From the NCBI GenBank assembly GCA_035546535.1, contig DASZWQ010000050.1, positions 62,001 to 126,000 on the forward strand: a stretch of DNA of 64,000 bases, in the 5' to 3' direction. Source of the DNA: Pirellulales bacterium. Its GTDB lineage: Bacteria; Planctomycetota; Planctomycetia; Pirellulales; JACPPG01. The notes beneath the pieces are model-generated. The model was not told the origin of the DNA and ran no database searches. It saw nothing but the letters and a program-made list of their open reading frames with translations. Shown here in pieces: positions 44,844 to 64,000 of the stretch; position 1 is the stretch's first letter, and each line of letters opens with the position of its first letter. The translations under genes were made by a program, and so were the position numbers.

Positions 44844-45176
44844 TTAGACCATGTCCTTCAGGTTCTTCAGAGCGCGGATGGCGACCTTGTTGTAGGCCGG
44901 ACGCGCCTTGACGTCCATCAACTCTCCCGGCTTGAAGGGGTTGGGCACACCCTTCTTCGCAGGACGAGCGGGAACCTTCTTCTTCGTGATCTTGACCAGG
45001 CCAGGAATGCCGAAGACACCCGGACCACGATTGCTGAGCGCCTTGCGCACTTCGCCGGCGAGGGCTTCCAGAACAGCCGAGACGTCCTTGCGGCTCACGT
45101 CGGTCGCGGACGAAATGTTGTTCAGGATCTCGCTCTTGCTCGGTGCTTTCTTGGCAGCGGTTGCGGCTTTCGCCAT
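44844..45176 (-). CDS. HU/IHF-family DNA-binding protein
   Basis: The 110-residue basic protein bends and compacts DNA. It starts with a lysine/alanine-rich extension of about 12 residues (MAKAATAAKKAP), then the HU core: SKSEILNNISSATDVSRKDVSAVLEALAGEV (dimer helices), GVFGIPGLVKITKKKVPARPAKKGVPNP (the saddle strands and the DNA-intercalating arm with its conserved R-P-A-x-K-G-x-x-P-P/F) and the closing strand KARPAYNKVAIRALKNL. HU chains are usually about 90-95 residues, so this one has a longer basic N terminus. AAGGAGGTT lies 12 bases upstream of ATG 45174-45176. A strong palindromic control region precedes it. Confidence 0.92.
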   Translation of the reverse strand: MAKAATAAKKAPSKSEILNNISSATDVSRKDVSAVLEALAGEVRKALSNRGPGVFGIPGLVKITKKKVPARPAKKGVPNPFKPGELMDVKARPAYNKVAIRALKNLKDMV

Positions 45177-45682: not shown

Positions 45683-45711
45683 TTGCTGGACCAGTGCTCT
45701 TCATGTAAGAT
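45683..45711 (+). promoter_or_regulatory. Promoter of the PQQ-MoxR-VWA operon
   Basis: TTGCTG (45683-45688) and TAAGAT (45706-45711) are 17 bases apart. The transcript would start near 45718, giving a leader of about 270 bases before ATG 45988. The leader contains a CCGCGC/GCGCGG stem-loop (about 45779-45803) with a TTTTT in its loop. Confidence 0.6.
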
Positions 45712-45987
45712 ATTGCTAAGGCTTGTCTTACGACGTGCCGGTAGCGGCGCCAGCTTACCTGCAGGGCTTCTGGACCCGGCGCCGCGCTCGGTTTTTCTCC
45801 GCGCGGAGCGAGAACTCGAGTGCCGTGAAACCTATCTAACCCTTACGGAGTCGGGGAGCGGTAGTTGGCGGAACATTGAGCACGCCCAGCTAGGCACACA
45901 TCGGCGTGGTTCGGCGAACGCGTTCGTCGACCACGACACAGCTTGACCAGCAAGAACGGGCCTTGATCGGCAGGAAAGGGAAGGCGC

Positions 45988-48900
45988 ATGGATCATGGTG
46001 GATACAGGGGCTGGCGAGCTCTTTGCGTCCTGGCCCTCTTCGTAGCGCTACTGGACGGCGGCGGGTATTTGCTGGCCGAGGAACCGGCGGCTGCGGACCC
46101 TTTCGGTACCGAGAAGCCCGCAGAGAAGCCTGCTCAGGCGGACAAAGCCAAGCGGGAGCCGGCCCCTGCCAAGACTCCGCCGCAGGCCGAACCTCCCAAG
46201 GTCCGTCCGCTGCCGGGCCAGCTTCAGATGCGCGGCGGCGCCGTGCCGCTGATCCGCGGTCGCATCGCCATCGGCCGGCCTGACGCAGTAGACGACGACC
46301 CGATCTTTTTTCCCGCCGATCGCGCCACCTTGCAACGACTGTCCAAAGCCGAGGAGCTGCTGAAGGAAAAGCGATTCGGCGAAGCCGTGCGACTGCTGGG
46401 CGACATCCTCGAAGCGCCGGAAGACTTCTTCTTTCAGCCGAAGCGCGACGAGCCGATCCACCGCAGCCTGAAGGCCGAGGCGCAGCGCTTGATCGGCGAA
46501 CTACCGGCCGAGGGGCGCGAAGCGTACGAATTGCTGTTTGGCGAGATGGCACGCCGGAGTCTCGACGGTGCGGTTGCCAGCGGCGACACCTCGGCGCTAA
46601 CCGAAGTGTCGCGCCGCTTTTTCCACACGAGTGCCGGCTACGAAGCGACCTACCTGCTCGCCGCTCAGCAGATCGATCACGGTCAGCCGCTGGCCGCGGC
46701 GCTGTCGTTGAAAAGATTGCAAGGCACGCCGGCCGGTGCGAAGTTCGAGCCGGCGTTGTCCGTCAAGCTGGCGGCTTGCTGGTTGCAGGCTGGCATGAGC
46801 GACAACGCGCGCGAAACGCTCTCCCAGCTCCTCCAGCAGGATCGGGCGCAGCGAGTGATTCTCGCCGGCAAGGAAGTGCCGCTGTTCCATCGCGATGACG
46901 AAGCCTTGAGCTGGTTGGCACAGGTGGCCCACGTCGAATCCACGACGCCGGTCGACGGCAGCGACCAATGGCCGATGTACCGAGGTAGCGCCAGCCGCAA
47001 CACGATTTCCAGCGGCAGCAGCCCGTTGCTGAGCCGCCGCTGGGCGATTCCGACTTCCGACACGTTCGGCCCACCGGTCGAGGAGATGGTCCGGCAACTG
47101 CGCGAAACGTCGCAGGATCAGGGGAGCCTGCTCTTGTGCAGCTTGCACCCGCTGGCCGTGAAGGACCTGGTACTCATGCGCACGGTCGGCGGATTGTTGG
47201 CGGTCAATTTCACGACGGGAAAACGCGTCTGGCCGGGCCCGGTCGACGAATCGATACGCCACTTGCTCGATCCGGGCGCCCCTTCGCACTCGATCAATCA
47301 GCCGATGCGCGTCGGCGCCGCGCGGCAGGTGCCGAATCCGGCGCTGGCGAATGGTCCGCGCTGGCTCAGCCATCGGCTGTATGAGGACACGACGTACGGC
47401 ACGATGAGCAGCGACGGTCTGCGCGTCTTTTGCATTGAGGACCTCGACTCCGGCCTGGGCGTGACCGACCAATGGCAGGTTGTGAACCCCAACGGCCGCC
47501 GCGTAACGCAAACCGTCGGTGCGCGATCGTTCAATCGCCTGGCGGCCTACGACATTGCCACCGAGGGAAAATTGAAATGGGAAGCGGGCGGCCCGCTCGG
47601 CGAGCCACAGTCGGAGCTGGCCGGCGCGTTCTTTCTAGGACCACCGCTTCCGCTGGCCGACAAGGTCTACGCACTCTCGGAGCTCAAGGGTGAAATTCGC
47701 CTCGTGGCGCTCGATGCGGCGACCGGCAAGGTCGAGTGGACGCAGCAACTGGCCGTGCTGGAAACCATTCTGGGCGCCGAGCAGGTGCGCCGCTCGGCCG
47801 GTTTGTGCCCGTCGTATTCCGACGGTGTCCTGGTCTGTCCGACGGCCGCCGGAGCCGTCGTAGCGCTCGACCTCACCACGCGCTCGCTCTTGTGGGGTTA
47901 CCAATACGCGCGCAATGACGGCAACGCGCCGGAAGCAGTGCGCTTGGGCATGATCCGCAATCCGGCGCTGGCCGCCAACAACGTCGGCAACGGACAGCGC
48001 TGGACCGACGCCAGCGTCACGATTGCCGCCGGACACGTGCTGCTCACGCCGCCGGAATCGAATCAGCTCCACTGCCTGAACCTGCTTGATGGCAAGCTGC
48101 TGTGGCAAAAGCCGCGCGACGACGGGCTTTACGTCGGCTGCGTTCATGAAGACAAGGTTCTCGTGATCGGCCGGAATTCGCTCCGAGCATTGGCTCTGCG
48201 CGACGGTTCGTCGTGCTGGAACGAAGCCTCGTTGCCGCTGCCGGTGGGCAGCATTCCGACGGGCCGCGGCTTTTTTAACGGTAAGCGCTATCACCTGCCG
48301 CTCAGCACCGCCGAGGTAGCGGCCATCGACGTCACGACCGGGCAGATCGTGGCCCGCTCGAAGTCGCGGACCGGCACCGTCCCCGGCAATTTGATTTGCC
48401 ATCGGGGGGCGGTGATCTCGCAAAGCGTCGACGTGATCGAGCGATTCGACCAGCGCGACGATCTTTGGCAGCAGATCGGCGCCGCGATCGAAGCCGATCC
48501 CAAGGATGCCGCGGCGCTAGCGCGGCGCGGCGAATTGCTCTTGGACGAAGGGAACTTCCGCAAAGCCACCGAAGACCTGCGGACGTCGTTCGATATCGCG
48601 CCGGACGCCCGCACCCGCGACCTGCTGGTCGATGCGCTGCTCGAGGGTTTGCGGGCCGACTTCCCCGCCTACCGTGACCAGTTGGCTGACATCGAAAAAC
48701 TCATCGATCAGTCGGCGCAGCGGGGCGAGTTTCTGCGGTTGGTGGCCGTCGGCTGGCAAAAGGCAGGCAACGTGCCGGCAGCGTTTGACGCCTACATGAA
48801 CATCGCCAGTTTGGGAGCAAATGCCAACGATCTGGAACGAGTGGACCACGTGCTGTCGGTCCGTCGCGATCGCTGGGTGCAGGCGCGGCTGAAGGAATTG

Positions 48901-50928
48901 CTCGAGGCCGCCTCGCCCGCCGATCGCGCCGCGATGGAGAAAACGATCGAGGAGCGACTGGCGACGGCCGTGCAAGCCGCCGGCCCGATCCCGCTGCGCA
49001 CGTTCCTGACCTATTACGGAACGCTACCTATCGGAGACGTCGCCCGCGAAGCTTTGGTGGCGCGACTGGAGGAAGAAGGATCCTTCGCCGAAGCCGAGCA
49101 ACTGCTGCGGCGGCTGGAGGCCTCGGGCGACCCGCGCCGGGCGGCCCGCGCCACGGCGCAGTACGCGGCCCTGTTGCAGTCGGCCAAGCGCTACGACGAT
49201 GCGGCGATCTACTACCGGCGATTGGCCGATCGCTTCGCCGACGAGGAGTGCCTGGACGGCAAATCGGGACGGCAGATCGTCGAAGCGCTGCCGGAGAAAT
49301 CCGATGTGAACAGGCTGCTGGCGATGACGAACCCCTGGCCCGTCGGGGTCGTCGAGCGCGAGGAAGGCAAGAGCCCGGTGGGCGTGGTAACGCGTCACTT
49401 CGCGTTGGATTTAAGCGGCCCGCTCGCTCCTTTTTATGACAATTCGACCCTCTGCGTGGATCAGCAGCAGCAATCGTTGGTCGGGTTCGATGGGGTCGGC
49501 CGTGAACGTTGGCGCGTGCCGCTTCGTGATACGACCTCGAACAATAACAACAACCACACGTTCTTCGGCAACGGCCAGATGAACCCGGCCCGGGTTAGCG
49601 GCCACGTCGTGCTCGTATCGATGGGTTACCAGGTTTTGGCGATCGACACCTTGGGCGGTCCCGGGACGGACGGCGCCCGCGTCTTGTGGCGGCACGACTT
49701 GATCGATCGCGCTCCGGCGGTCCCCTTTCAGCCGCAGCCGCACGTCATTCAAGTTCCGTGGGCGGTCCCGCGCCTGGTGGTAGCCGATCAATTGGGGCGC
49801 CCGCTGGGGAGCATCGGCCCGATCACGCCGGAGTTGGCCTGCTACCAGCGTATGCGTTCGGTGATTGCGGTACATCCGCTGACCGGTGAATCGCAATGGA
49901 CGCGCAGCGACACCGAACCGGGCAGCGACATCTTCGGCGACGACGAAATGCTGTTCATCGTGGCGCCCAACAGCGAAGACGCCCTGGTCGTGCGTGCTCT
50001 GGACGGCTGCGAGTTGGGACGACGCAAAGTCGCCGCTTCGCCGCAGCGCATGCTGACCATGGGGCGGCGTGTGGTGAGCTGGGTCCTCGAGCGTGGCCAC
50101 GTCACGCTGGAAGTCAAGGACGCGTGGGCGGAAAAGTCCATCTGGCAGCGCCAGTTCCATGCCAACGCCAAAGCCTGGGTCGTTCACGACGAGGCGGTGG
50201 GCGTGATGACGCCCGACGGCAAGTTCACACTCTTGAACCTGGCCGATGGCCAGGCGCTCGTCGACGAAAAACTCGATGCCGAACTGAACTTGAGCGAGAT
50301 TTACGTGCTCCGCAGCCCCGACCAGTACATCCTGGCCACGAACCGGCCCATTCAGGTCCGCAACAACATCAATCGCCAGCCCGTCACCAGCAGCATCGGC
50401 AATCCTTTGATCACGGGGCACGTGCATTTCTTCGACCGCTCGTCGGGCAAGAAGATCGGCTCGCTGGAGGTCGATCGTCAGGGTTTGCTCCTTAGCCAAC
50501 CCGCGTCGCTGCCCGTGCTGACCTTCGCCACGCACGTCTATGACCAGCGGAAAAACCGCTCACAAAACGTCGAGGCGGAATTGCTGTTCGTCGACAAGCG
50601 TACGGCCAAAATCGTCCACGAGGAAAAGCTGGCGCAGCCGGTTCAGCAGGGAATAGATATCTCGGGCGATCCAGAACTTCACGAAGTACTGGTCCGCGCC
50701 CATGGTGTCTCGCTGCGGTTGAAGTTCACCGGAAAGCCTCTGGCTGATGAAGCCGCGGCTCCCGCCAGCAACGATGACGCGAAGGAGTCCGACACCGCGC
50801 GCGCCGGCAAGGCCGTCATGCGCGGGTTCCAGAATTGGCTGCAGATCCTGGCTCCTCGACCACAATCGCCGGGGCCTCAACCGCAGGTGCCGAAGCCGGC
50901 GGCGCCCATGGGGGAGGCACCAAAATGA
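45988..50928 (+). CDS. Large secreted PQQ-type beta-propeller / TPR protein
   Basis: The 1646-residue protein starts at ATG 45988 behind AAAGGGAAGG. A signal peptide (WRALCVLALFVALLDGGGYLLA) is followed by a Pro/Lys-rich linker (to about 90). A helical repeat region (about 110-320) contains AEELLKEKRFGEAVRLLGDIL, and a first propeller (about 325-820) has blades such as LLAVNFTTGKRVWPG and VVALDLTTRSLLWGY. A second helical/TPR block (about 830-1090) includes AALARRGELLLDEGNFRKATEDL. A second propeller (about 1110-1570) contains VIAVHPLTGESQWTR. The C terminus is Pro-rich. It is probably periplasmic and a scaffold. The stop overlaps the next gene by ATGA. It heads a ten-gene operon with MoxR and VWA proteins. 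Confidence 0.85.
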   Translation: MDHGGYRGWRALCVLALFVALLDGGGYLLAEEPAAADPFGTEKPAEKPAQADKAKREPAPAKTPPQAEPPKVRPLPGQLQMRGGAVPLIRGRIAIGRPDAVDDDPIFFPADRATLQRLSKAEELLKEKRFGEAVRLLGDILEAPEDFFFQPKRDEPIHRSLKAEAQRLIGELPAEGREAYELLFGEMARRSLDGAVASGDTSALTEVSRRFFHTSAGYEATYLLAAQQIDHGQPLAAALSLKRLQGTPAGAKFEPALSVKLAACWLQAGMSDNARETLSQLLQQDRAQRVILAGKEVPLFHRDDEALSWLAQVAHVESTTPVDGSDQWPMYRGSASRNTISSGSSPLLSRRWAIPTSDTFGPPVEEMVRQLRETSQDQGSLLLCSLHPLAVKDLVLMRTVGGLLAVNFTTGKRVWPGPVDESIRHLLDPGAPSHSINQPMRVGAARQVPNPALANGPRWLSHRLYEDTTYGTMSSDGLRVFCIEDLDSGLGVTDQWQVVNPNGRRVTQTVGARSFNRLAAYDIATEGKLKWEAGGPLGEPQSELAGAFFLGPPLPLADKVYALSELKGEIRLVALDAATGKVEWTQQLAVLETILGAEQVRRSAGLCPSYSDGVLVCPTAAGAVVALDLTTRSLLWGYQYARNDGNAPEAVRLGMIRNPALAANNVGNGQRWTDASVTIAAGHVLLTPPESNQLHCLNLLDGKLLWQKPRDDGLYVGCVHEDKVLVIGRNSLRALALRDGSSCWNEASLPLPVGSIPTGRGFFNGKRYHLPLSTAEVAAIDVTTGQIVARSKSRTGTVPGNLICHRGAVISQSVDVIERFDQRDDLWQQIGAAIEADPKDAAALARRGELLLDEGNFRKATEDLRTSFDIAPDARTRDLLVDALLEGLRADFPAYRDQLADIEKLIDQSAQRGEFLRLVAVGWQKAGNVPAAFDAYMNIASLGANANDLERVDHVLSVRRDRWVQARLKELLEAASPADRAAMEKTIEERLATAVQAAGPIPLRTFLTYYGTLPIGDVAREALVARLEEEGSFAEAEQLLRRLEASGDPRRAARATAQYAALLQSAKRYDDAAIYYRRLADRFADEECLDGKSGRQIVEALPEKSDVNRLLAMTNPWPVGVVEREEGKSPVGVVTRHFALDLSGPLAPFYDNSTLCVDQQQQSLVGFDGVGRERWRVPLRDTTSNNNNNHTFFGNGQMNPARVSGHVVLVSMGYQVLAIDTLGGPGTDGARVLWRHDLIDRAPAVPFQPQPHVIQVPWAVPRLVVADQLGRPLGSIGPITPELACYQRMRSVIAVHPLTGESQWTRSDTEPGSDIFGDDEMLFIVAPNSEDALVVRALDGCELGRRKVAASPQRMLTMGRRVVSWVLERGHVTLEVKDAWAEKSIWQRQFHANAKAWVVHDEAVGVMTPDGKFTLLNLADGQALVDEKLDAELNLSEIYVLRSPDQYILATNRPIQVRNNINRQPVTSSIGNPLITGHVHFFDRSSGKKIGSLEVDRQGLLLSQPASLPVLTFATHVYDQRKNRSQNVEAELLFVDKRTAKIVHEEKLAQPVQQGIDISGDPELHEVLVRAHGVSLRLKFTGKPLADEAAAPASNDDAKESDTARAGKAVMRGFQNWLQILAPRPQSPGPQPQVPKPAAPMGEAPK

Positions 50929-51959
50929 AGTCGTTACGATTGCTGCTTTGTGCCCTGGTGGGCGTTGTGCTCGGTGACGCGTCCTTACCTCCGCGCGCCG
51001 CGGCCGAACCAATCAACGATCCCAAGGTGCGCGCCGCCATTCATCGCGGCCTGGATTGGATCGCGAATTCCCAATCGCGGTTGGGCCACTGGTCGGCCAA
51101 CGATGGTCGCTACTCGACGGCCATGACGGCCCTGGCGGGCATGGCTCTCTTGGCCGAGGGGTCGACCACCACGCAAGGCAAATACGCCCCCAACATTCGC
51201 CGCGCCGTCGATTACCTGGTTAGTCGGGCGCGCCCCAACGGGCTGATCGGCGAGCAGCGCGACGACCGCTATACCTACGGGCACGGCTACTCGATGCTCT
51301 TCCTCTCGCAGGTGCTGGGGGAGGAAGAGGATCTGGACCGCCGCGAAACATTGATCGAGGTCCTCACCAAAGCCGTGCAATTCACGGGTGAAGCCCAGAC
51401 ACAGGCCGGCGGTTGGGGCTACGTGAGCGCCAAGGACGGGCACGATTTCGACGAAGGGTCGACCACGATCACGCAAGTGCAGGGATTGCGCGGCTGCCGC
51501 AATGCCGGCATACCCGTGCCAAAAGAGATTATCGACAAGGCCATTAAATACATCCGGCAATGCACCCTGCCGGATGGAGGCGTGCAGTACAGTTCGAAGG
51601 GCGGTGGCGGCCGGCCGGCCATTACGGCGGCGGCCATCGCCTGTTTGTTCAATGCCGGAGATTACGACAGCGAGTACGTGCCCAAGCTGTTGGAGTACGC
51701 CAATCGGAACCTGGCGAACATCGGCAACGAGGGTTTTGGCCATTGGCATTACGCTCATTACTACTACGCCCAAGTGAAATACCGCGAAGGGGGCAAGATC
51801 TGGTCCGAGTATCGTGACAAGATTTTCGGCCGCATCGTTTCGGAAGCGAGCCCCAACGGCTCCTGGAACCAGGGCTACATCGGCACGATCTACACCACGG
51901 CCATCAACTTGACGATCCTGCAGCTGGAAGACGCCATGCTGCCTATTTATCAACGCTAG
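50925..51959 (+). CDS. Secreted prenyltransferase/squalene-oxidase-repeat protein
   Basis: ATG 50925 overlaps the preceding stop (ATGA), with GGGGAGG upstream. The 344-residue product has a signal peptide (MKSLRLLLCALVGVVLGD) cut near RAAAE. The mature protein is an alpha/alpha-toroid with repeats typical of the squalene-cyclase/prenyltransferase superfamily: IHRGLDWIANSQSRLGHW, TAMTALAGMALLAEG, AVQFTGEAQTQAGGWGYVSAK, IKYIRQCTLPDGGVQYSS, ITAAAIACLF and YTTAINLTILQLED. The catalytic D-x-D-D motif of squalene-hopene cyclases is not seen, so it is more likely a binding or scaffold toroid than a cyclase. Such proteins are abundant in planctomycetes next to MoxR/VWA genes. Confidence 0.85.
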   Translation: MKSLRLLLCALVGVVLGDASLPPRAAAEPINDPKVRAAIHRGLDWIANSQSRLGHWSANDGRYSTAMTALAGMALLAEGSTTTQGKYAPNIRRAVDYLVSRARPNGLIGEQRDDRYTYGHGYSMLFLSQVLGEEEDLDRRETLIEVLTKAVQFTGEAQTQAGGWGYVSAKDGHDFDEGSTTITQVQGLRGCRNAGIPVPKEIIDKAIKYIRQCTLPDGGVQYSSKGGGGRPAITAAAIACLFNAGDYDSEYVPKLLEYANRNLANIGNEGFGHWHYAHYYYAQVKYREGGKIWSEYRDKIFGRIVSEASPNGSWNQGYIGTIYTTAINLTILQLEDAMLPIYQR

Positions 51960-52001
51960 AAGCGCCGCACTTAGACACCGCAGCACCTTGAGGAATCGTG
52001 C

Positions 52002-53057
52002 ATGACCGCCGACAGGACATCCATGAGCGACGCGTCCGCCATCCGGCAATTGGGACAGGCGCGCGAGAAGATTCTGCAGCAGCTTTCCGAAGTGATCGTC
52101 GGTCAGCATGAGGTGATCGAGGAGCTGTTGATCTCGCTTTTCAGTCGCGGCCACTGCCTGCTGGAGGGGGTGCCGGGGCTCGCCAAGACGTTGATGATCA
52201 GCACGCTCAGCCGCACGCTCAACCTGTCCTTCAGCCGCATTCAGTTCACGCCCGACTTGATGCCGGCCGACATCACGGGCACCGAAATCCTGGAAGAGAA
52301 CCGCTCCACGGGGGCCCGCGAATTCCGTTTCCTACAAGGTCCGCTGTTCGGCAACGTGATTCTGGCCGACGAAATCAATCGCACGCCGCCGAAGACGCAA
52401 GCTGCGCTTTTGGAAGCGATGCAAGAACGACAGATCACGGCCGGGCGGGTGCGGCACCGGCTGCCTGATCCGTTTTTCGTGCTGGCCACGCAGAACCCGA
52501 TCGAACAGGAAGGAACGTATCCTCTGCCCGAGGCGCAGCAGGATCGCTTCATGTTCAAGGTGTACGTGAAGTACCCGTCGTTCCAGGAAGAATTCGAGAT
52601 TGCCCGCCGCACTACGAGCACCGTAACCGACCACGTGGTGCCGGTGCTGACGGCCGAAGAGATCATGGCCCTGCAGCGGTTGGTGCGCGAGGTTCCGGTT
52701 TCGGACCACGTGGTGCGCTACGCCCTGTCGCTGGTCCGACAGACGCGCGTCCGCGAGCTGGGTGCGCCCGACTTCGTGCAGGACCAGTTGAACTGGGGCG
52801 CGGGGCCGCGGGCCGTGCAATTCCTGGTGCTGGGGGCCAAGGCGCGGGCCCTGCTGCACGGCCGCACGCACGTCACGACCGACGACATCCAGGCCCTGGC
52901 CAAACCGGTGTTGCGGCACCGGTTGATCGTGAACTTCGCGGCCGAAAGCGAAGGGGTCACCACGGACCACGTCATCCAACAACTGCTCGAAGTGACACCA
53001 ACGAAGGAAGACGAACTGACCAATGACGTCCGCTTCCAAAAGATTTTTGCATCCTGA
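52002..53057 (+). CDS. MoxR-family AAA+ ATPase
   Basis: The 351-residue protein starts at ATG 52002 (an ATG at 52023 is possible). Walker A is [65 protein letters not shown] (Walker B D-E and pore region), [25 protein letters not shown] (sensor 1 and arginine finger region) and the C-terminal lid with [16 protein letters not shown] are all family hallmarks. MoxR ATPases work with VWA-domain partners as chaperone-like machines that activate or assemble target complexes. Its 3' end overlaps the DUF58 gene by 35 bases. It belongs to the large operon starting at 45988. Confidence 0.96.
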
Positions 53058-53928
53058 GGCGATCGCCCGTATCGCGCACCTGGAAGTGCGCGCGCGGCAC
53101 GTCGTCGAAGGCTTTCTCTCCGGCATCCACCGCAGCCCCTACTTCGGTCAGTCGATCGAGTTCGTGCAGCACCGCGAATATACGCGCGGCGACGATCCGC
53201 GGCACATCGACTGGAAAGTGTGGGCCAAGCAAGACCGCTACTACGTCAAGCAGTTCGAGGAAGAGACGAACCTGCGCTGCACGCTGCTGGTCGATGTATC
53301 GGCCAGTATGCGGTACGGCTCGCAGCCGCTGAACAAGTACGCCTATGGCTGCACCATCGCGGCCAGCCTGGCGTATTTGCTGTTGCGCCAGCAGGATTCG
53401 GTGGGCTGCGTGTCGTTCGACGCCGCGGCGCGCGTCACGGTGCCGCCGCGCAGCAAGCGCACGCATCTGCAATCCATCATTCAAGCCCTGGAGGTCAGCG
53501 AGCCCGAGGAAAAAACCGATCTGTTCCGCGTCCTGCGGCACATGGCCGAGCAGGATCCGCGCCGCGGCATGGTCGTTTTGATCTCGGACCTGCTGGTCGA
53601 CCGCAGCGGACTGTTCAAGGGGCTGCGACTGCTCAAGCAGCGCGGACATGACGTCCTGGTCTTTCACGTCATGGACGACGACGAGCTGGATTTCGAGTTC
53701 AACGGGCCGATGCGCTTCGACGGGCTCGAAACCGCCGATCGCTTGACCTGCAATCCCCGGGCACTGCGCGAAGGATATTTGCAAGCCTTGCAGACGTATC
53801 TCGACGAAGTACGGCGCGGCTGCGCGCAGCACGTCGTCGACTACGCGCTGGTGCGCACCAGCCAGCCCTTGGACGTCGCCCTCACCACCTACTTGAACAA
53901 TCGCCTGGGCATGCACCACCGCAACTGA
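53023..53928 (+). CDS. DUF58 / VWA-like partner of MoxR
   Basis: The 301-residue protein overlaps moxR by 35 bases. The DUF58 signature is [35 protein letters not shown] at about residues 48-82, followed by a VWA-type fold with MIDAS-like [12 protein letters not shown] (D-x-S-x-S), [13 protein letters not shown] and [13 protein letters not shown]58 proteins are the constant companions of MoxR ATPases and are thought to present or receive the client. There is no signal or membrane helix, so it is cytoplasmic. The start at ATG 53023 ([30 protein letters not shown]) matches the family N terminus. Confidence 0.94.
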
Positions 53929-53978
53929 AAGATCGAATTCCTCGAAATAGTTCCAACTGCGTGATCGGTTAAAGCGTT

Positions 53979-56180: not shown

Positions 56181-58615
56181 CGAGCTTCCTTCTGCTGGCT
56201 GCCGGAAATTTGCGCACGACGTTTGAGTGGGGGCGCATCGACAGCGGCGTCGATTGGCTGCTGCCCGTGGCAGCGATGATCGGCCTTGTCGCGTTTACGG
56301 TTTACATGTACCGGCGCGACAGCGTGGATCTACAGCGGCCGGTCGCCGTTTTGCTCACCGCGCTACGGCTGACGGCGCTCGGCGTGCTGGCTCTGGTTTA
56401 CTTGCAGCCGCAATGGCGCAACGAACGCGAGATGGTGACGAACTCGCGCGCTGTCGTCATGGTCGATACCAGTCTGAGCATGGGGCTGCACGACGCTGAC
56501 GCTTCCCCCATTCCGGCCGAGCCCAGCCGTGCCCAGCAAATTCAAGCGGCGTTGGCCGGCTCCTCCTTTTTGCGTGACCTGCGGCGCACCCACGACGTGG
56601 TGCTCGTCCGTTTTGATCAAGACTGCGCGCGGGTCGCGACGTTGAACAAAGTTACTGCCGACGCCGCAGCCACGGGCGCGGCGACTGACGACGACGCGCT
56701 GGAACACTTGAAGTGGGACGAGCTGTTCGCACCGCACGGAGCGGAAACGCGCTTGGGCGAGGCCCTGGCCCAGGTCCTGAACGAGGAACGCAGTGAGCCG
56801 GTCGCGGGCATCATCGTATTCACCGATGGACAGCAGAACGCCGGCGTCGAACCGGCCGCCGTGCTCGCGAGTGCCCGCGAAGCGGGCTTCCCCATTTACC
56901 CGATCGGGGTCGGCTCGAACCGGCAGAACGTGAACGTCCGTGTTAGCGATTTCGTCGCTCCTGCCCGCGCTTATCCCGGTGATAAATACACGGCCACCGG
57001 CTACCTGCAAGCGCAAGGGCTGGCCGGGCAAACCGTGACGGTCGAACTGCTCGCAAGCGACGCCGCCCCCGGCGCACGCGACGCAGGTGCCAAGGCCGGC
57101 ACCGTGGTCGCCACGCGACAAGTCGTCTTGGGCGGAGACGGCGAAGTGGTGCCGGTCGCTTTTGAAATGGTGCCCGATGCCGTCGGGCGCAAGACGCTCT
57201 CGCTGCGCGTTGTCCCGCCGCGCCAGGACAGCTACGCCGGCGACGATCTGCAAGAAGTCGATATCGAAATCGTGGATCGCAAGACCAAAGTGCTGCTGTT
57301 CGCCGGCGGGCCAACGCGCGAATATCAGTTTCTGCGCAACCAGCTGCGCCGCGACAAGGACATGATCGTCGACGTGCTGCTGCAGACCGGCGAAGAGGGA
57401 ATGTCGCAAGACGCCAACGAAATCCTCGACGCATTTCCAAGCACGCGCGAGGAGCTGTTCGAGTACGACTGCATCGTGGCGTTCGACCCCGATTGGCGCG
57501 TATTGTCCACGGCACAGATCGAAGCCGTCGAGCGCTGGATCAGCGAGCAGGCGGGAGGCTTGATCGCCATCGCCGGCCCGATCTATAGCGACGCGCTGGC
57601 GCAGGATAATCGTCTGGCCAAGATTCGTTCGCTCTATCCGGTCGAGTTCAATCGCCGGTTGTCGCTCTTGGACGACGGGCGCTACGGTTCGAAAGAGCCG
57701 TGGCCGCTGGAGTTCACCCGCGATGGCAGCGACGCCGATTTCTTGTGGATCGAGGAGTCGGGCCCGACGAGTGCCCAGGCCTGGAGCGAATTCAAGGGCG
57801 TGTACGGCTATTTCGGGGTCAAAGGGCCGAAGCCGGCGGCGACCGTTTTTGCGCGCTTTTCCGACCCGCGCGCCCGCGAGGGGGACCAGCAGCCGGTTTA
57901 CCTGGCCAGCCAGTTCTTTGGCGCAGGACGCGTCTTCTATTTGGGCAGCGGCGAGATGTGGCGCCTGCGGGCCCAGAGCGAAGCGCAATTCGAGCGTTTC
58001 TACACCAAGCTGATTCGTTTCGTCTCGCAGGGACGCTTGCTCCGCGGGTCGAATCACGGGGTCTTGCTGGTCGAGCGCGATCGTTACCTGTTGGGCAATA
58101 CCGTGGCCGTCCGCGCGCAGCTCAACGGCGCGCAGCTGGAACCGCTCGTGGCGCCGCAGGTCACGCTGCAGGTCTATCTGCCGGATACTACCGAGCAGAA
58201 CGTGACGCTCGTGGCCGATCCGAGCCGGCCAGGCAACTTCGCGGGCCAGTTCACCGTGCGCAAAGAAGGGGTCTACCGTCTCGAGCTACCCGTGCCCGAG
58301 GTGGCCGACGAGCGACTGTCGCGGCGGATTCAGGTCAAGGTACCCGACCTGGAACGAGAGAAGCCACAGCGCAACGATGCACTACTTACCGAAATCGCGA
58401 CAAAGACCGGCGGCAGCTATTACATGGGGATCGATGCGGCGCTGGGAAGTGTCGCGGAACCGGGCGCGCTCGTCAAACAACTGCGCGACCAGAGCCGCGT
58501 GACGATCGTTTTGGATACGCCGGCCCGCCTGTGGGACAACGGCTGGGTGCTGGGAATCGTGTGCGGTTTGTTCTGCACGGAATGGTTCATTCGCCGGCTG
58601 GTGAAGTTGGCATAA
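56177..58615 (+). CDS. VWA-domain membrane protein with amidotransferase-like domain
   Basis: ATG 56177 overlaps the preceding stop, with AAGGAGGT six bases before it. The product has 812 residues. Two N-terminal helices (LLPVAAMIGLVAFTVYMY and a second at about 55-75) are followed by a VWA domain with VVMVDTSLSMG (D-x-S-x-S) and GIIVFTDGQQN. Ig-like strands (about 265-370) precede an amidotransferase-like fold at about 375-600 (KVLLFAGGPTREYQFLRNQL, then CIVAFDPDWRVLSTAQIEAVERWIS). After a further beta domain, a C-terminal helix (LGIVCGLFCTEWFIRRLV) returns to the membrane. The architecture parallels the preceding gene, and the two may be ancient paralogues. The large extracytoplasmic part suggests action in the periplasm. 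Confidence 0.9.
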   Translation: MTSFLLLAAGNLRTTFEWGRIDSGVDWLLPVAAMIGLVAFTVYMYRRDSVDLQRPVAVLLTALRLTALGVLALVYLQPQWRNEREMVTNSRAVVMVDTSLSMGLHDADASPIPAEPSRAQQIQAALAGSSFLRDLRRTHDVVLVRFDQDCARVATLNKVTADAAATGAATDDDALEHLKWDELFAPHGAETRLGEALAQVLNEERSEPVAGIIVFTDGQQNAGVEPAAVLASAREAGFPIYPIGVGSNRQNVNVRVSDFVAPARAYPGDKYTATGYLQAQGLAGQTVTVELLASDAAPGARDAGAKAGTVVATRQVVLGGDGEVVPVAFEMVPDAVGRKTLSLRVVPPRQDSYAGDDLQEVDIEIVDRKTKVLLFAGGPTREYQFLRNQLRRDKDMIVDVLLQTGEEGMSQDANEILDAFPSTREELFEYDCIVAFDPDWRVLSTAQIEAVERWISEQAGGLIAIAGPIYSDALAQDNRLAKIRSLYPVEFNRRLSLLDDGRYGSKEPWPLEFTRDGSDADFLWIEESGPTSAQAWSEFKGVYGYFGVKGPKPAATVFARFSDPRAREGDQQPVYLASQFFGAGRVFYLGSGEMWRLRAQSEAQFERFYTKLIRFVSQGRLLRGSNHGVLLVERDRYLLGNTVAVRAQLNGAQLEPLVAPQVTLQVYLPDTTEQNVTLVADPSRPGNFAGQFTVRKEGVYRLELPVPEVADERLSRRIQVKVPDLEREKPQRNDALLTEIATKTGGSYYMGIDAALGSVAEPGALVKQLRDQSRVTIVLDTPARLWDNGWVLGIVCGLFCTEWFIRRLVKLA

Positions 58616-58682
58616 CGCAAATTGCAGAGACTCAGAAACCTCATCCTGAAAACTCCGCTCGCGATCGAGATCTTTCAAGTCG

Positions 58683-60941
58683 ATGGCCACGATCACGGAA
58701 CGACCACAACTGGAATCGCACGTCACCGCACTTTTTGAGCGGCTGCGTGCGAGAATCCGCCGCTACGTCGCCCTGGAAGGGGTGGGATTGTGCGTCGTCG
58801 CGCTGTGCTTGGCGTTCTGGTCGTGCCTGGCCTTGGACTGGGTGTTCGAGCCCGTCGCCTGGGTTCGCCGTGGGCTGCTGATTGCGGGCGCCGTCGCGAC
58901 GGGCGCGGTGTTCTATCAACTGGTCGTGCGGCGGCTGGCCGTGCCGCTACCCGATTCGCGATTGGCGCTACTACTCGAACGGCGCTTCCGCTCGTTCGAC
59001 GACAGCCTGCTGACCTCGGTCGACATGACGCAATCGGATCGGGAGTTGGGCGACCTCGCGCGCGAGATGCTCGACAGCACGCTCGGCGAGGCCGGCCGGC
59101 AGGCACAGCACGTGAAACTCGACGACGTCTTCCGGCGCGAGCCATTGCGGCGGGCCATCGGCAGCGCGGGATTATCCGCCGCTACGCTTGTCGTCGCCCT
59201 GCTGACCGTGCCTGGCACACTGCTGTTCGGCGTCGAACGATTGACCGGCATGACCAATGATCCCTGGCCACGGCGCGTGCGGCTCGTGGTGCCCGGTTTT
59301 GAGGATGGCGTGAAGGTCGTGGCTCGCGGCGACGACGTCGACGTGCTGGTGCAGGCCGATTTGTCGATGCCTTCGGTGCCGGAGGTCGTGCAGATTCGTT
59401 ATGTGACGGACGAGGGAGTGCGCGGTCGCGAGACCATGACCCGCACCGGGAACGCCGTGGCCAATCAGGACGCGTTCCAGGATTTTCGTCACACGTTTAA
59501 CAACGTGCTCTCTTCGTTGACTTTCGAAGTGGCCGGCGGTGACGCGCGCGTGCGCGACCTGGCGATCCACGTCGTCGACAGCCCGACGATCGCTGAAGCC
59601 ACGCTGGTCTGCGAATACCCCGGCTACATGAACCGCAGCCCCCGCGAGCTGCGCGTGACTGGCGCGATGCAGGTGCCGCTGGGGACGAAGGTGACCGTAC
59701 GGGCCCGGGCGAGCAAGGACCTGCGCCGCGCCGAGATCAGCTACCCGATCGACGCATCGACGAATCACACCGAGTCGATCGATCTGCCGCAGCAAGGAAA
59801 TGACCTGCGGACGATTCAATTCCAACTGCCCGATCTGGCGGCCGACACGACGCTGAACTTCACGCTGTTCGATACCGATGGCATTCACAATCGGCGACCG
59901 TTTGTCGTGTCGCTGTCGGCCGTCGCGGACGAGCCGCCGCAATTGTCGTTGCAATTGCAAGGGATCGGCTCGGCGATCACGCCGCTGGCCAGGCTCCCCT
60001 TGGTGGGCCAGATGGTCGACGATTACGGAGTGGCGTCAGCAGCGTTCCAGCTCACCGTAGATGACAAGGAGACCGTACGGGCGCCGCTGGCCGACGCGCC
60101 CGCGGGCCGTAGCGAGATCGAAGTCGACGAGGCGTTCGAGGTTCGTGATCTTGGCCTGAAGGCCGGGCAAAAGGTCCTCTTCGGCGCCGAGGCGCAGGAT
60201 GCCTATCACCTGGCCGACGGCGACCAGCCACACACGGCCACGAGCGAACGCTTTCAGCTCGACGTGGTCACGCCCGAGACGTTGCGCACCATGCTCGAAT
60301 CGCGCGAGCTCAACCTGCGGCAGCGGTTCGAGACGATCATCTCGGAAATGAGCGAAACGCGCGACTCGCTGGCCCAACCGCCGGAGTCCGGCGGGCAGCC
60401 AGCGGATGAAGACAAAAGCGATGCCGAATCGCCTGCCGACCAGGCGGCCACGGACCAACCGCCAAGCGCCGAGCACGCGGCTCAGCGGCATCCGAAACTC
60501 GATTTGCGCGTCGAGCGAGCCAAGCAAAATTGCGAGAAAAACGGGCAGGAAACGCTGGGCGTGGCAACTGGATTTGACGAGATCCTTGAAGAATTGGTTA
60601 ATAACCGCGTAGACACCGAAGAATTGCGGGTACGCTTAAGAAATAGGATCGCCGAGCCATTGCGCGGGATCGGCGAGCAGATGTTCCCCGAGTGCGACCG
60701 CCGGTTGCAGGCCTTGTTGACGGCGCCAGGCGACGCGACGGCCAGAACCGCGGCGATCGAACAGGCCGACGCGATCCTGGTGGCGATGGAACAAATCCGC
60801 GATCAAATGCTGGAGCTGGAGAGTTTTAACGAAGCGGTCGACATGCTGCGTTCGATCATCGGCTCGGAAAAGGCGTTGCAAGAACAGGTGCGCGAGCGTC
60901 AAAAGCGCAAGGTGCGCGACCTGCTGGAGGATTCGGAATGA
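58683..60941 (+). CDS. DUF4175-like membrane protein with C-terminal coiled coil
   Basis: The 752-residue protein starts at ATG 58683. Three hydrophobic helices occur in the first 190 residues: GLCVVALCLAFWSCLALDWVF, GLLIAGAVATGAVFYQLVV and AGLSAATLVVALLTVPGTLLFG. Between helices 2 and 3 a cytoplasmic-looking loop (ALLLERRFRSFDDSLLTSVDM) is typical of DUF4175-type proteins. Beta-rich Ig-like domains follow (about 195-530), including VDDYGVASAAFQLTVD. The last 220 residues are coiled coil broken by an acidic low-complexity linker (ADEDKSDAESPADQ). Its stop overlaps the next start (ATGA). It is probably an envelope component that contacts the coiled-coil product of the next gene. Confidence 0.82.
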   Translation: MATITERPQLESHVTALFERLRARIRRYVALEGVGLCVVALCLAFWSCLALDWVFEPVAWVRRGLLIAGAVATGAVFYQLVVRRLAVPLPDSRLALLLERRFRSFDDSLLTSVDMTQSDRELGDLAREMLDSTLGEAGRQAQHVKLDDVFRREPLRRAIGSAGLSAATLVVALLTVPGTLLFGVERLTGMTNDPWPRRVRLVVPGFEDGVKVVARGDDVDVLVQADLSMPSVPEVVQIRYVTDEGVRGRETMTRTGNAVANQDAFQDFRHTFNNVLSSLTFEVAGGDARVRDLAIHVVDSPTIAEATLVCEYPGYMNRSPRELRVTGAMQVPLGTKVTVRARASKDLRRAEISYPIDASTNHTESIDLPQQGNDLRTIQFQLPDLAADTTLNFTLFDTDGIHNRRPFVVSLSAVADEPPQLSLQLQGIGSAITPLARLPLVGQMVDDYGVASAAFQLTVDDKETVRAPLADAPAGRSEIEVDEAFEVRDLGLKAGQKVLFGAEAQDAYHLADGDQPHTATSERFQLDVVTPETLRTMLESRELNLRQRFETIISEMSETRDSLAQPPESGGQPADEDKSDAESPADQAATDQPPSAEHAAQRHPKLDLRVERAKQNCEKNGQETLGVATGFDEILEELVNNRVDTEELRVRLRNRIAEPLRGIGEQMFPECDRRLQALLTAPGDATARTAAIEQADAILVAMEQIRDQMLELESFNEAVDMLRSIIGSEKALQEQVRERQKRKVRDLLEDSE

Positions 60942-62830
60942 GCTGTAGCTCAAGCGCGCGACGAACGGGTAGCCCCCTGCCCTGCCTGGCGGCAATGCTT
61001 GTCGCGGTGGTTGGATGGAGCGTTATGGCGCGTGCCGACGAGCCCACCCCGCACGACGAGCAACAGCAGCAACCGGCCCCCGGCTCGGCCGCGGAGCTCG
61101 CCCGCGAACAACAGCAACTTGCCGAGAAATACAAGCGCTTCGAAGAAGTGCTCTTGCGCATGGCCGAGCTGACGGCTCCCACCGACCCGAAGCGGGCGGC
61201 ACTTCTGCGCAAAGCCGTGGCCGAGAGCAAGCACCAACTCATCGGCATGCAGCTCGACAAATTGGCGGAATTGCTGGGCCAGGATCGACTCTCGGTCGCG
61301 CTCAACAGCCAGAACGACGTCAACAAGGACCTGGCCGAGCTCTTGGATTTGCTGCTGACCGAGGAACGCGACAAGAGTCTGAAAGACGAGCGTGCCCGGC
61401 TGAAAGAGCAAATCCGCAAAGTCGGCGAGCTGATCAACAAAGAGCGGCAACTGCAAGGTCAAACCGCCGGCGGCGGCGAAATGCGCGAGCTGGCCCAGGG
61501 ACAGGGGAAAGTCGCGGAAGACGCGCGCAAACTGGCCGAGGAAATGAAACCGGCCGGTGAGAAAGAATCCAAGAACGGCAACGGCGAAAAGGGCAAAGAC
61601 GACGCGCAACAGGGAGACAACGAAAAACAAGATGCAGCCGACGGAAAACAAGGCCAGGGCGGCGACAAGTCCGACGACAAGAATCCAGGAGACAAATCCT
61701 CGGGCGATAGGGGCTCCGATCAATCCGGCAAATCGGGCGCGAAGAAGCCGTCTGACGACAATCAAAAGCCCGGTGACGAGAAGGGCAAGAAGCAGGACGC
61801 CGAGTCCGACGGCGAAAAGACCGACGACGAGAACGAAAAATCGCCGCAAGACGACAAAACGCCCGCGGAGTCGGGCCAAGGTCAACAAAGCAAAGGCGAC
61901 AAAAAGAGCGACAAGAAACAGGGACAGCAGAAACCCAACGAAGGTCAGCCCGGGCAACAAGGCGAGTCGCAAGACGGGCAGCAGCAGGATCAGGAGTCGC
62001 AGAAGCAGGACTCGTCCGCCTCGGCCCGCAAACGTGTCCAGGCAGCCCAGGAAAAAATGGAAGCGGCCCGACAAAAGCTGGAAAAAGCCCAGCGTGAAGG
62101 GGCCACCGAAGAGCAAGAAGCCGCGATTCGCGAGCTGGAGCAAGCCAAGGCCGAGCTGGAAGAGATCCTCCGTCAGCTCCGCGAAGAAGAACTGGAACGG
62201 ATGCTGGCCATGCTCGAAGGGCGCTTCCGTAAAATGCTGCAGGCCCAGGTCGAGGTTTACGAAGGAACCAAGCGCGTCGACCAGACGCCGCCAGCGGAAC
62301 GCGATCGCGACGACGAAATCGAGGCCGGTCGCTTGAGCCGTAAGGAATCGCAAATCGTGCTCGAAGCCGAAGGCGCCCTGGCCATCTTGCGTGAGGACGG
62401 TTCGGCCGTGGCCTTCCCCGAGGCAGTCGAGCAGATGCGCGAAGACATGGAGCTGATCGTCGGGCGACTCGCCAAGGGAGACGTCGGCGACCTCACCCAG
62501 GGCATCGAGGAAGACGTGATCGCGGCGCTGGAGGAGACGATCGAATCGCTGCAAAAGGCCCAGCAGGACATGGAAAAGCAGAAGCAGCAACAGGCGCAGG
62601 AGGGTGAGCCGCAGGAGCCGCCGCTGATCGACGGCCTGGCCGAGTTGAAAATGATCCGTTCGCTGCAAATGCGCATCAACCTGCGCACCAAGCGGCTGTC
62701 GCGGTTGGTCGAAGGCGAGGTTGGCCAGGCCGACAAGCCCGAGTTGCTCGAACAACTCGAGCGCCTCGCCGAGCGCGAAGAAAGCGTGTTCCGCGTCACG
62801 CGCGACATCGTTACAGGGAAGAACAAATGA
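60938..62830 (+). CDS. Secreted coiled-coil protein with a hydrophilic K/D/Q/G-rich domain
   Basis: ATG 60938 overlaps the previous stop (ATGA). The 630-residue product has a signal peptide (PLPCLAAMLVAVVGWSVMARA). Residues about 40-190 are coiled coil (AREQQQLAEKYKRFEEVLLRM, then KDERARLKEQIRKVGELI). Residues about 195-360 are extremely hydrophilic and repetitive: Lys, Asp, Glu, Gln, Gly, Ser with G-D-K, K-S-D and G-Q-Q motifs, and almost no hydrophobic residue. A second coiled coil (about 365-450: ARKRVQAAQEKMEAARQKLEKA) and a helical C-terminal domain follow. The middle is probably disordered. The reverse strand shows a 644-residue hydrophobic shadow frame caused by this composition. Confidence 0.85.
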   Translation: MSCSSSARRTGSPLPCLAAMLVAVVGWSVMARADEPTPHDEQQQQPAPGSAAELAREQQQLAEKYKRFEEVLLRMAELTAPTDPKRAALLRKAVAESKHQLIGMQLDKLAELLGQDRLSVALNSQNDVNKDLAELLDLLLTEERDKSLKDERARLKEQIRKVGELINKERQLQGQTAGGGEMRELAQGQGKVAEDARKLAEEMKPAGEKESKNGNGEKGKDDAQQGDNEKQDAADGKQGQGGDKSDDKNPGDKSSGDRGSDQSGKSGAKKPSDDNQKPGDEKGKKQDAESDGEKTDDENEKSPQDDKTPAESGQGQQSKGDKKSDKKQGQQKPNEGQPGQQGESQDGQQQDQESQKQDSSASARKRVQAAQEKMEAARQKLEKAQREGATEEQEAAIRELEQAKAELEEILRQLREEELERMLAMLEGRFRKMLQAQVEVYEGTKRVDQTPPAERDRDDEIEAGRLSRKESQIVLEAEGALAILREDGSAVAFPEAVEQMREDMELIVGRLAKGDVGDLTQGIEEDVIAALEETIESLQKAQQDMEKQKQQQAQEGEPQEPPLIDGLAELKMIRSLQMRINLRTKRLSRLVEGEVGQADKPELLEQLERLAEREESVFRVTRDIVTGKNK

Positions 62831-63870
62831 AGCGACGTGCAATATTGACACTGCTGCTGCTTGTGGTTGCGCGCGGTGCTGCACGCGCCGACTCGCACCC
62901 CGACGCGCTTGGCCAGATTCCCGTGATCAAGGCCGCGACCAACGACGAGGTGCAGAAGCGCGCGCTGGCCTACCTGACCGAGCGCCAGGCGGCGCCGGAG
63001 GTCAACACGGCGGCCGCGGCGATTTGGGCCGGCGACACGAGCGCCGCGACGGCGCTCGATCGGCTCGTGGCCACGATCGCCCTGGTTGAACCGCGGGCCA
63101 AGGCGCTTTTGGAACTCTGCGCTCATCAGCGCGAAGCGCGGGCCCTGGCCGCCCAGGATTGGCTCACGGCCGACGACACGCCCGCCTGGGTGCGCAACAA
63201 TCTCCGCTTGTATTACGGGCGCTGGTTGTCGCAGCAACGACTCTACGACGAATCGCTCGAGCAACTGGCCGGACTCGAACCAACGGACGTCGTCGATCCC
63301 GCCGCACTCTTGTTCTATCAGAGCGTGGCGCATCATCGTCTGCTGAACAAAACTGATGGGCTGCGTACGATCGACCGGCTTTTGAGTCAGGTTGTCGAAG
63401 GGCCCTCGCGCTATGTGACCGTGGCTGGGTTGATGCGCGAAGACCTCAAGGGGCTCGAAGATGATTCGCTCGATCACATCGCGCGGCGCATGGACGACAT
63501 TCGTCGGCGGCTGGATTTGGGCCGAGCGGGCGAAAAAGTGCGCAAAGAAGAAGACGGCGTCATCGCCTCGCTCGACAAACTCATCGAAGAGATGGAAAAA
63601 CAGCAGCAGCAACAACAGCAAAAGAACGCCGGCGGCGGCACCGCTCCCCCGTCCCAGCCCATGCCCGACAGCCGCATCGCCGCGGCCAAGGGACCTGGCG
63701 AAGTCGATCGCAAGAAGCTCGGCAACACGGCCGGGTGGGGCGACCTGCCGGCCAAGGAACGTGAAGAGGCCCTACAGCAGATCGGCAAGGATTTTCCCTC
63801 GCATTATCGAGATGTTATCGAGCAATACTTCAAGAAGCTGGCCACCGAAAAGGAACCGTCTGGTAAGTAG
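62827..63870 (+). CDS. Secreted helical-repeat protein with a glutamine run
   Basis: ATG 62827 overlaps the preceding stop (ATGA). The 347-residue product has a signal peptide (MKRRAILTLLLLVVARGAARAD). The body is all-helical with TPR-like pairs (LRLYYGRWLSQQRLYDESLEQLAGLE, then PAALLFYQSVAHHRLLNKTDGLRTID). Next comes DSLDHIARRMDDIRRRLDLGRAGEKVRKEEDGVIASLDKLIEEMEK, and a run of seven Gln. The C-terminal 80 residues contain RKKLGNTAGWGDLPAKEREEALQQIGKDFPSHYRDVIEQYFKKLA, a motif that I recognise as recurring at the ends of planctomycete operons of this type. The function is unknown. It is the ninth gene of the operon and is followed by one more gene at the window edge. Confidence 0.8.
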   Translation: MKRRAILTLLLLVVARGAARADSHPDALGQIPVIKAATNDEVQKRALAYLTERQAAPEVNTAAAAIWAGDTSAATALDRLVATIALVEPRAKALLELCAHQREARALAAQDWLTADDTPAWVRNNLRLYYGRWLSQQRLYDESLEQLAGLEPTDVVDPAALLFYQSVAHHRLLNKTDGLRTIDRLLSQVVEGPSRYVTVAGLMREDLKGLEDDSLDHIARRMDDIRRRLDLGRAGEKVRKEEDGVIASLDKLIEEMEKQQQQQQQKNAGGGTAPPSQPMPDSRIAAAKGPGEVDRKKLGNTAGWGDLPAKEREEALQQIGKDFPSHYRDVIEQYFKKLATEKEPSGK

Positions 63871-63938
63871 CATTGGGCCCTGACGTGAAACATCGACCGG
63901 ACCGATAGTCCGCCAAAAAGTCGAAGGAATATTCGCGC

Positions 63939-64000
63939 GTGGATTTTTTGATCGTAACAGTGTTGTTGATGGCATCGCCCGGCGTCCAAGTGCAGACGCT
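63939..64000 (+). CDS. Start of a further exported protein (truncated by window end)
   Basis: GTG 63939 opens MDFLIVTVLLMASPGVQVQT, a short hydrophobic signal peptide with a plausible cut after S-P-G or the following residues. GAAGGAAT lies about 10 bases upstream. Only 20 residues are visible. It is 68 bases behind the Gln-rich protein gene on the same strand and is probably the tenth gene of the operon. The gap between them holds no feature. Confidence 0.5.
   Translation, partial: MDFLIVTVLLMASPGVQVQT

Follow-up and report, generated by a model that had tools for sequence, protein, structure and literature searches.

What does a long row of co-directional genes built around a MoxR-type ATPase gene do for a planctomycete? 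We addressed this question in a 64,000-nucleotide stretch of DNA from a Pirellulales bacterium (hereafter the window), which corresponds to positions 62001-126000 of contig C50 in a 6.36 Mb assembly (genome G000). Nine complete genes (g1 to g9) and the start of a tenth (g10) run on the forward strand from position 45988 to the window end. These open reading frames, their order and their overlaps are as described in the first-pass annotation, which had proposed a complete trans-membrane machine for building or remodelling an envelope structure. The operon extends about 6.3 kb beyond the window end, where g10 to g14 are found (stretch L010; window numbering is kept there). The word 'complete' must therefore be dropped, since a trio of HtrA-type genes, most of the NPCBM gene g10 and g14 lie outside the window. 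We tentatively propose that the operon codes for an envelope machine for the maturation or quality control of exported proteins, in which a MoxR-DUF58 pair is coupled to the HtrA trio.

The run comprises 13 to 14 genes, all on the forward strand, and its 13 junctions span -35 to +68 bp: -4 (g1-g2), +42 (g2-g3), -35 (g3-g4), +50 (g4-g5), -4 (g5-g6), +67 (g6-g7), -4 (g7-g8), -4 (g8-g9), +68 (g9-g10), -4 (g10-g11), +2 (g11-g12), +12 (g12-g13) and +7 bp (g13-g14). The first two genes code for predicted exported proteins, a 1646-residue TPR/PQQ-type propeller protein (g1, 45988-50928; PF13360 at 1.6e-30 in four stretches, and TPR_19) and a 344-residue alpha/alpha toroid (g2, 50925-51959; PF13243, squalene-hopene-cyclase type). 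They are followed by the genes of a 351-residue MoxR AAA+ ATPase (g3, 52002-53057; PF07726, i.e. AAA_3, at 2.9e-63, and PF17863, i.e. AAA_lid_2) and of a 301-residue DUF58 protein (g4, 53023-53928; PF01882 at 9.3e-52, with a VWA_2 match), both predicted to be cytosolic. The MoxR protein exceeds the curated cut-offs of its two families (212 vs 27 bits for AAA_3, 70.2 vs 22.7 bits for AAA_lid_2), and its P-loop reads GVPGLAKT. Next come two membrane proteins, one of the BatA type (g5, 53979-56180, 733 residues; PF07584 at 2.4e-18, TIGR02226, and weak CARDB and GATase1-like matches) and the second a VWA protein (g6, 56177-58615, 812 residues; VWA_2, VWA, weak ThuA). Pfam thus agrees with the families first given to g1 to g6, and the DUF4175-type membrane protein g7 (58683-60941, 752 residues) only just passes the cut-off of PF13779 in a genome-wide search (29.7 vs 27.3 bits). 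In single-protein scans, no Pfam family was found for g7, g8 or g9 at E 0.1.

The remaining products are a predicted exported K/D/Q/G-rich protein with apparently helical ends (g8, 60938-62830, 630 residues), with orthologues in the same position in relatives, a probably exported helical protein with a conserved C-terminal motif of the type WGxLP...YRxxIExYF (g9, 62827-63870, 347 residues) and an NPCBM protein (g10, 63939-65123, of which 63939-64000 is inside the window, 394 residues; NPCBM at 5.7e-31). The trio consists of an HtrA-PDZ protein with an intact triad (g11, 65120-66970; Trypsin_2/PDZ), a pseudo-HtrA (g12, 66973-68022, with a GTG start chosen at 66973) and a second pseudo-HtrA with two PDZ stretches and an alpha/beta-hydrolase-like end that lacks its nucleophile (g13, 68035-70029). 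The last gene, g14 (70037-70354), codes for a 105-residue membrane protein.

Part of this set is of a known kind. The adjacent, same-strand moxR, DUF58 and BatA genes (g3 to g5) make the locus a bat-type cluster, and as in bat-type operons the MoxR, DUF58, BatA and VWA genes occur in that order. In contrast with those operons, DUF4175, propeller and toroid genes, g8 to g10 and the HtrA trio are added here. Bat operons are known for BatA to BatE; BatD- and BatE-type families were absent from Pfam scans of g1 to g13 and from an NCBIfam scan of g1 to g9, g14 being outside both. At 80 named MoxR loci, homologues were found for DUF58 (57), g5 (35), g6 (29), g7 (9), g1 (7), g2 (5) and g8 (3), the late genes being under-counted with flanks of at most 10 kb. 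The MoxR-DUF58-BatA-VWA core is therefore widespread. Versions of the cluster that start with the toroid gene occur in a Phycisphaerales record (L059) and a Verrucomicrobia record (L061). Neither a membrane VWA/DUF4175 layer nor proteases are known to us from the NorQ/NorD and RavA/ViaA pairs. These pairs resemble the present operon in that they combine a MoxR AAA+ protein with a VWA protein, and they are described as serving a dedicated client.

Is the whole run a unit? The first-pass annotation had suggested comparing the gene order around moxR in other planctomycetes, and we read the region in 28 relatives (20 + 8), a non-random sample, since they were picked for a g7, g11 or g13 hit and for long contigs. 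Where two matches overlapped by more than half, our scripts retained only the better. Cross-hits and non-neighbouring matches were removed before counting: G144 from the g12 and g13 sets (its g13 match sits far from its g11), G008 from the g13 set and G021 from the g2 set. Genes g1 to g13 occur in order and on one strand in 14 of the 28 relatives. Those of the same genus or order are G001, G003, G004, G005, G007, G009, G010, G016, G017, G027 and G032, and three (G249, G265 and G283) belong to another family of the class (f100). Among these 14, g1 is incomplete in three, at the contig end in G007 and at the edge of the stretch in G249 and G283, and g13 is aligned only in part in G010 and G027. 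Two more relatives (G018 and G019) have g1 and g3 to g13, with only g2 missing from the locus and a g2 homologue elsewhere. Five f21 genomes (G087, G190, G282, G285 and G316) have g3 to g13 with no g1 ahead of the block, and in the last seven the run is split or absent. In the f100 genomes G249, G265 and G283, identities are 69-73% for MoxR, 54-59% for DUF58 and only 22-49% for the other matches. The order has therefore been retained across a long divergence.

A g7 homologue was detected in 40 of 40 genomes at E 1e-3, our genome included, and in 39 of 40 at 1e-25, the exception being G021, and g13 is present in 85 of 118 genomes of the class at E 1e-50, again counting our own. None of these 85 genomes belongs to family f99, which accounts for 16 of the 20 listed misses. 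Family f99 may be the Isosphaerales and f100 the Gemmatales. In the MoxR tree, a named Pirellulales locus (L051) groups with the window type, and loci from Planctomycetales (L056) and Planctomyces sp. (L057) group with f21, which suggests that f21 corresponds to the Planctomycetales. G021, which lacks the operon, and the f99 genomes with no g13 match belong to the same order or class as our genome and would be useful for phenotype comparisons.

The gene run is thus well supported as a conserved unit. It is likely that g1 to g14 serve one process, and they probably encode one machine. This interpretation has to be weighed against another, rather unlikely one, in which one promoter serves two neighbouring functions without energy coupling: assembly by a MoxR-DUF58-BatA-VWA-DUF4175 module, and quality control by an HtrA module that works independently in the periplasm. 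Several observations count against a single machine and show that its parts can be separated: G168 has only g11 to g13, G144 has only g11 at the place read, and the operon is absent from G021. Fragments such as g7 to g13 in G238 (f101) and g9 to g13 in G255 (f100) also fit two functions. The other broken cases are G063 (g6 to g13) and G008 (g7 to g12, with g1 and g2 on a separate contig). Nevertheless, 21 of the 28 relatives, a sample chosen by hits, have at least g3 to g13 in order, and each of the 21 has g9 and g10 between the two halves, which speaks against two independent functions.

A second cluster of the same genome bears on both interpretations. This cluster B (contig C61, 44001-64000; L163) codes in a row for PQQ, MoxR, DUF58, BatA, VWA, DUF4175, g9-like, toroid and NPCBM proteins, i.e. 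nine component types in common with the g1-g13 operon. It differs in that the toroid gene follows the g9-like gene, the PQQ protein is shorter (an 826-residue frame) and the DUF4175 frame has 1258 residues. In relatives, cluster B was located by its NPCBM protein, the DUF4175 hits in G005, G009, G010, G016 and G019 belonging to other clusters. Among nine stretches read, all nine components are co-linear in G005, G009, G017, G019 and G021. The cluster is nearly complete in G003, where the missing DUF58 match is probably hidden by the overlap filter, and in G010, where it starts at DUF58. Only the last three genes were found in G008, and only toroid and NPCBM genes in G087. In a quick MoxR tree of 110 rows, the operon-type proteins (16 rows) fall into a single group, as do the B-type proteins (7 rows), both with 99% support. 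The two groups are not sisters in this tree, but several of the intervening branches have only 80-92% support. In total, the genome has eight MoxR-type ATPases that exceed the AAA_3 cut-off, and their neighbourhoods differ clearly.

Two conserved clusters with the same component types are good evidence for a joint function, and the HtrA trio appears as a special feature of the g1-g14 operon. No match to the HtrA queries was found in the approximately 11 kb past the NPCBM gene of cluster B in this genome, G005, G009, G017 and G019. Such machines thus need not include HtrA, which again argues against a coupled device and fits a core that is independent of the proteases. Of the first-pass proposal, the trans-membrane machine gains support from the conserved gene order and from this second conserved cluster. 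The g9 protein (alignment of 18 rows) and its cluster-B counterpart (L159) share the C-terminal motif WGxLP...R...YxxxIxxYF, at about 63730-63867 in g9, which might be a docking element. A regular expression for this motif, a strict pattern, matched none of the 80 named MoxR loci, many of which end before g9.

What could the trio contribute? The g11 protein has clear Trypsin_2 (112 bits) and PDZ (27.5 bits) matches, its best PDB matches are DegP-like chains, and its His-Asp-Ser triad is kept in 28 of 28 sequences. For g12 and g13, we inferred the catalytic positions from the register with g11 and the GxSxG pattern in alignments of orthologues. Neither has the His and Ser of the triad that define an HtrA protease. 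In g12, Ser, Asn, Thr or Gly occupies the His position in 27 of 27 sequences, and the Ser position is non-Ser in 26 of 27. In g13, Phe or Tyr replaces His and Tyr replaces Ser in all 26 sequences, within an invariant NYGG. The hydrolase-like end of g13 has no Ser at the expected nucleophile position in any of the 24 rows with letters there. Two details run counter to a uniform loss of catalysis in g12: the nucleophile position is occupied by Ser in G265, where the His is lost, and in G063, G168 and G190 a His occurs one residue past the catalytic position. The retention of these losses over the whole range, together with the invariant NYGG, argues for a selected, non-catalytic role of g12 and g13.

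The closest known precedent for these two proteins may be MamO of magnetotactic bacteria. According to the passages available from PMC4794232, an active HtrA protein, MamE, and a pseudoprotease HtrA protein, MamO, are encoded in one gene island there as well, and MamO promotes MamE proteolysis non-catalytically, without a triad of its own. In contrast with MamE/MamO, the present operon has two pseudoproteases and a MoxR/VWA membrane core, and no Pfam match to a transporter domain such as the TauE domain of MamO was found. The likeness lies in the HtrA fold, and we claim no common origin beyond that. As for purpose, the building or remodelling of an envelope structure stays conjecture, and a role in protein maturation or quality control is more in line with the conserved trio of one protease and two pseudoproteases.

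We predicted the placement of the proteins with a simple hydropathy script and counts of Lys and Arg residues. N-terminal, signal-type hydrophobic segments were detected in g1, g2, g8, g10, g12 and g13. That of g9 falls below the script threshold in this genome and passes it in 12 of 18 rows, and none was found by this script in g11. No membrane segment was detected in g3, nor in g4 in 17 of 17 rows. Three transmembrane segments are predicted for g5 in 14 of 16 rows and for g7 in 17 of 18, and two or three for g6 in 17 of 18. For g5, the Lys and Arg counts clearly assign the loop between the first two transmembrane segments to the inside and the large domain to the outside. This inner loop is more conserved than the rest of the protein (0.70 vs 0.54). 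Weaker points for a core reached from the cytosol are that the script and these counts are the sole basis of the topology, that the counts suggest the same orientation for g6 only weakly, and that the g6 inner loop is not more conserved than the rest (0.47 vs 0.55). The g7 model (predicted local distance difference test, pLDDT, 82.4; predicted template modelling score, pTM, 0.47) combines membrane helices with Ig-like domains in tandem (residues about 200-530) and has a helical C-terminus. A fold search returned generic Ig-/macroglobulin-like tandem domains, with query-length template modelling scores of 0.09-0.22 among the 50 matches listed.

The toroid protein is by far the best conserved of the exported proteins, g11 coming next (21% invariant residues). 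Over the same 12 genomes, 140 of its 344 residues (41%) are invariant, and 154 of 351 (44%) for MoxR, and we thus rejected the idea that it is better conserved than MoxR. This high conservation suggests that g2 probably has a binding or catalytic pocket. The model built for it with six sequences (pLDDT 83) has an alpha/alpha-toroid fold, with AprG and type II terpene cyclases as the first PDB matches. We considered a terpene cyclase, but besides terpene cyclases, AprG transaldolase, glycoside hydrolases and the complement TE domain were also matched by this fold, and no activity is assigned.

The operon starts with a propeller protein of the PQQ family, which suggests another role, namely a machine for cofactor or metal insertion, comparable to NorQD or to the products of the mxa (methanol dehydrogenase) genes, with g1 as the client. 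The MoxR, DUF58 and VWA proteins would fit, and NorQ and NorD are described, in the parts of PMC9976466 available, as required for iron insertion into an enzyme. We consider this improbable. The g1 protein is under every quinoprotein and BamB cut-off, and only 12 of its 1646 residues are invariant in 12 rows, one truncated row lowering the count. The absence of g1 ahead of g3 to g13 in the five f21 genomes is at odds with g1 as the client, and the HtrA trio would be left unexplained. We similarly discarded g1 as a quinoprotein enzyme or BamB, the BamB score being 43.1 vs 285.2 bits and those of the NCBIfam quinoprotein models far below cut-off.

Both exported proteins at the start of the run can also be separated from it. 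Scattering of flanking homologues without moxR had been named at first as an argument against a joint function. It was observed in part, for g1 and g2 in four f21 genomes (G063, G087, G144 and G190) and for the HtrA trio alone in G168. In the four genomes, neither g1 nor g2 has its closest homologue at the moxR operon. The closest g2 homologues (57-63% identity) have no moxR match in the 20-kb stretches read, and that of G144 has HtrA-like and DUF58-like matches beside it. Several g1-like proteins occur in each of the four genomes. Two such places were read in f21 genomes, and at one of them, in G087, there is a weak moxR match, on the opposite strand.

MoxR and VWA genes also occur in conflict systems, and we asked whether the operon could be a defence system of the MoxR-vWA ternary kind. 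The available passages of PMC7159879 describe MoxR-vWA-beta-propeller ternary systems, also in planctomycetes, in which the vWA protein has a C-terminal propeller and the MoxR P-loop is often GXXXTAKS. The bpMoxR family does match g3 (6e-11, 42.2 bits vs a cut-off of 27), but AAA_3 matches it far better at 212 bits, its P-loop GVPGLAKT departs from that pattern, and no propeller family was found on g5 or g6. A PADLOC scan of 10 proteins of the run (without g1 and g12 to g14) matched only g11, with two RT-Protease_XI models and, weakly, PDC-M35A. The composition of the operon is moreover stable across lineages. We therefore disfavour a conflict system as highly improbable.

A good promoter had also been noted ahead of g1. 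A consensus scan found no site on the forward strand and one on the reverse strand, with 2.7 expected by chance, and a consensus match thus does not sustain that claim. Instead, the promoter is supported by its conservation in congeners. The promoter-like block at 45683-45731 (forward strand) starts with TTGCTG-N17-TAAGAT (45683-45711). When the 5' region of g1 was aligned between this genome and three congeners (G001, G003 and G004), the island TCATGTAAGATATTGC was identical in all four, and a TTG-led hexamer (TTGCTG here) stands 17 bases ahead of TAAGAT in each, within an upstream region that has otherwise diverged. The genome has no second copy of the 18-mer TGTAAGATATTGCTAAGG from the block, with up to 2 mismatches allowed. 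An inverted repeat, GTAAGA-N15-TCTTAC (45705-45731), overlaps the block and its -10-like element. It pairs at 6 of 6 positions here, in G001 and in G003, and at 4 of 6 in G004, and could possibly be a dedicated operator.

Two genes flank the operon on the reverse strand. Upstream, a divergent gene (44844-45176) codes for a protein with the look of an HU-type DNA-binding protein, judged by eye without a family search. Just past g14 and converging on the operon is a gene for a 668-residue SecA-like protein (L010:8495-10501) with SecA_DEAD, P-loop and preprotein cross-linking domains. It is also adjacent in the congener G003 (89% identity), and no match was found in the stretches of the other 19 relatives.

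How might the proposed envelope machine for maturation or quality control work? We infer co-transcription of the genes and complex formation of the products, as well as their location, energy coupling, MamO-like activation, client and purpose. From their families and topology, MoxR (g3) and DUF58 (g4) would form a cytosolic, ATP-driven remodelling pair. The g5, g6 and g7 proteins would sit in the inner membrane, with short loops inside and VWA and Ig-like domains outside, and g1, g2, g8, g9 and g10 would form a periplasmic layer for substrate binding and scaffolding. The protease would be g11, with g12 and g13 as non-catalytic partners that present substrate or switch g11 on, as in MamO. The MoxR ATP cycle could move the BatA, VWA and DUF4175 proteins and thereby gate substrate hand-over to the HtrA assembly, deciding between folding or assembly and cleavage of envelope proteins. 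In the more specific version of this model, which is doubtful, MoxR would act through these membrane proteins to drive a hetero-oligomeric periplasmic protease of one active and two pseudo-HtrA subunits, i.e. ATP-coupled control of HtrA. HtrA proteases are known to work without ATP, and MoxR proteins are known from the cytosol. The latter are said, in the portion of PMC3893208 available, to mature dedicated complexes.

In the open-licence literature, as covered by partial texts and, for MoxR in Planctomycetes, titles and the starts of abstracts, no description of the 13-gene assembly was found. Passages of a Rhodopirellula baltica stress study mention one von Willebrand gene and one htrA gene, with no link between them. 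The portion available of a transposon-directed insertion-site sequencing study of P. limnophila (PMC10632474) reports 108 phylum-specific essential proteins of unknown function; the terms 'von Willebrand', 'AAA' and 'serine protease' are absent from the main text. According to the same study, single deletions can be obtained in P. limnophila.

If this more specific version holds, the operon would represent an ancestral envelope machine of this planctomycete class and an energised protein-processing device for a periplasm devoid of ATP. With a conserved operon in which HtrA and MoxR proteins are combined with a membrane layer of VWA/DUF4175 proteins, one could test directly whether proteolysis in the periplasm is under ATP-coupled control. 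Planctomycete envelopes and division are unusual, and a 13-gene operon with the same order in several families of the class may well have a part in that biology.

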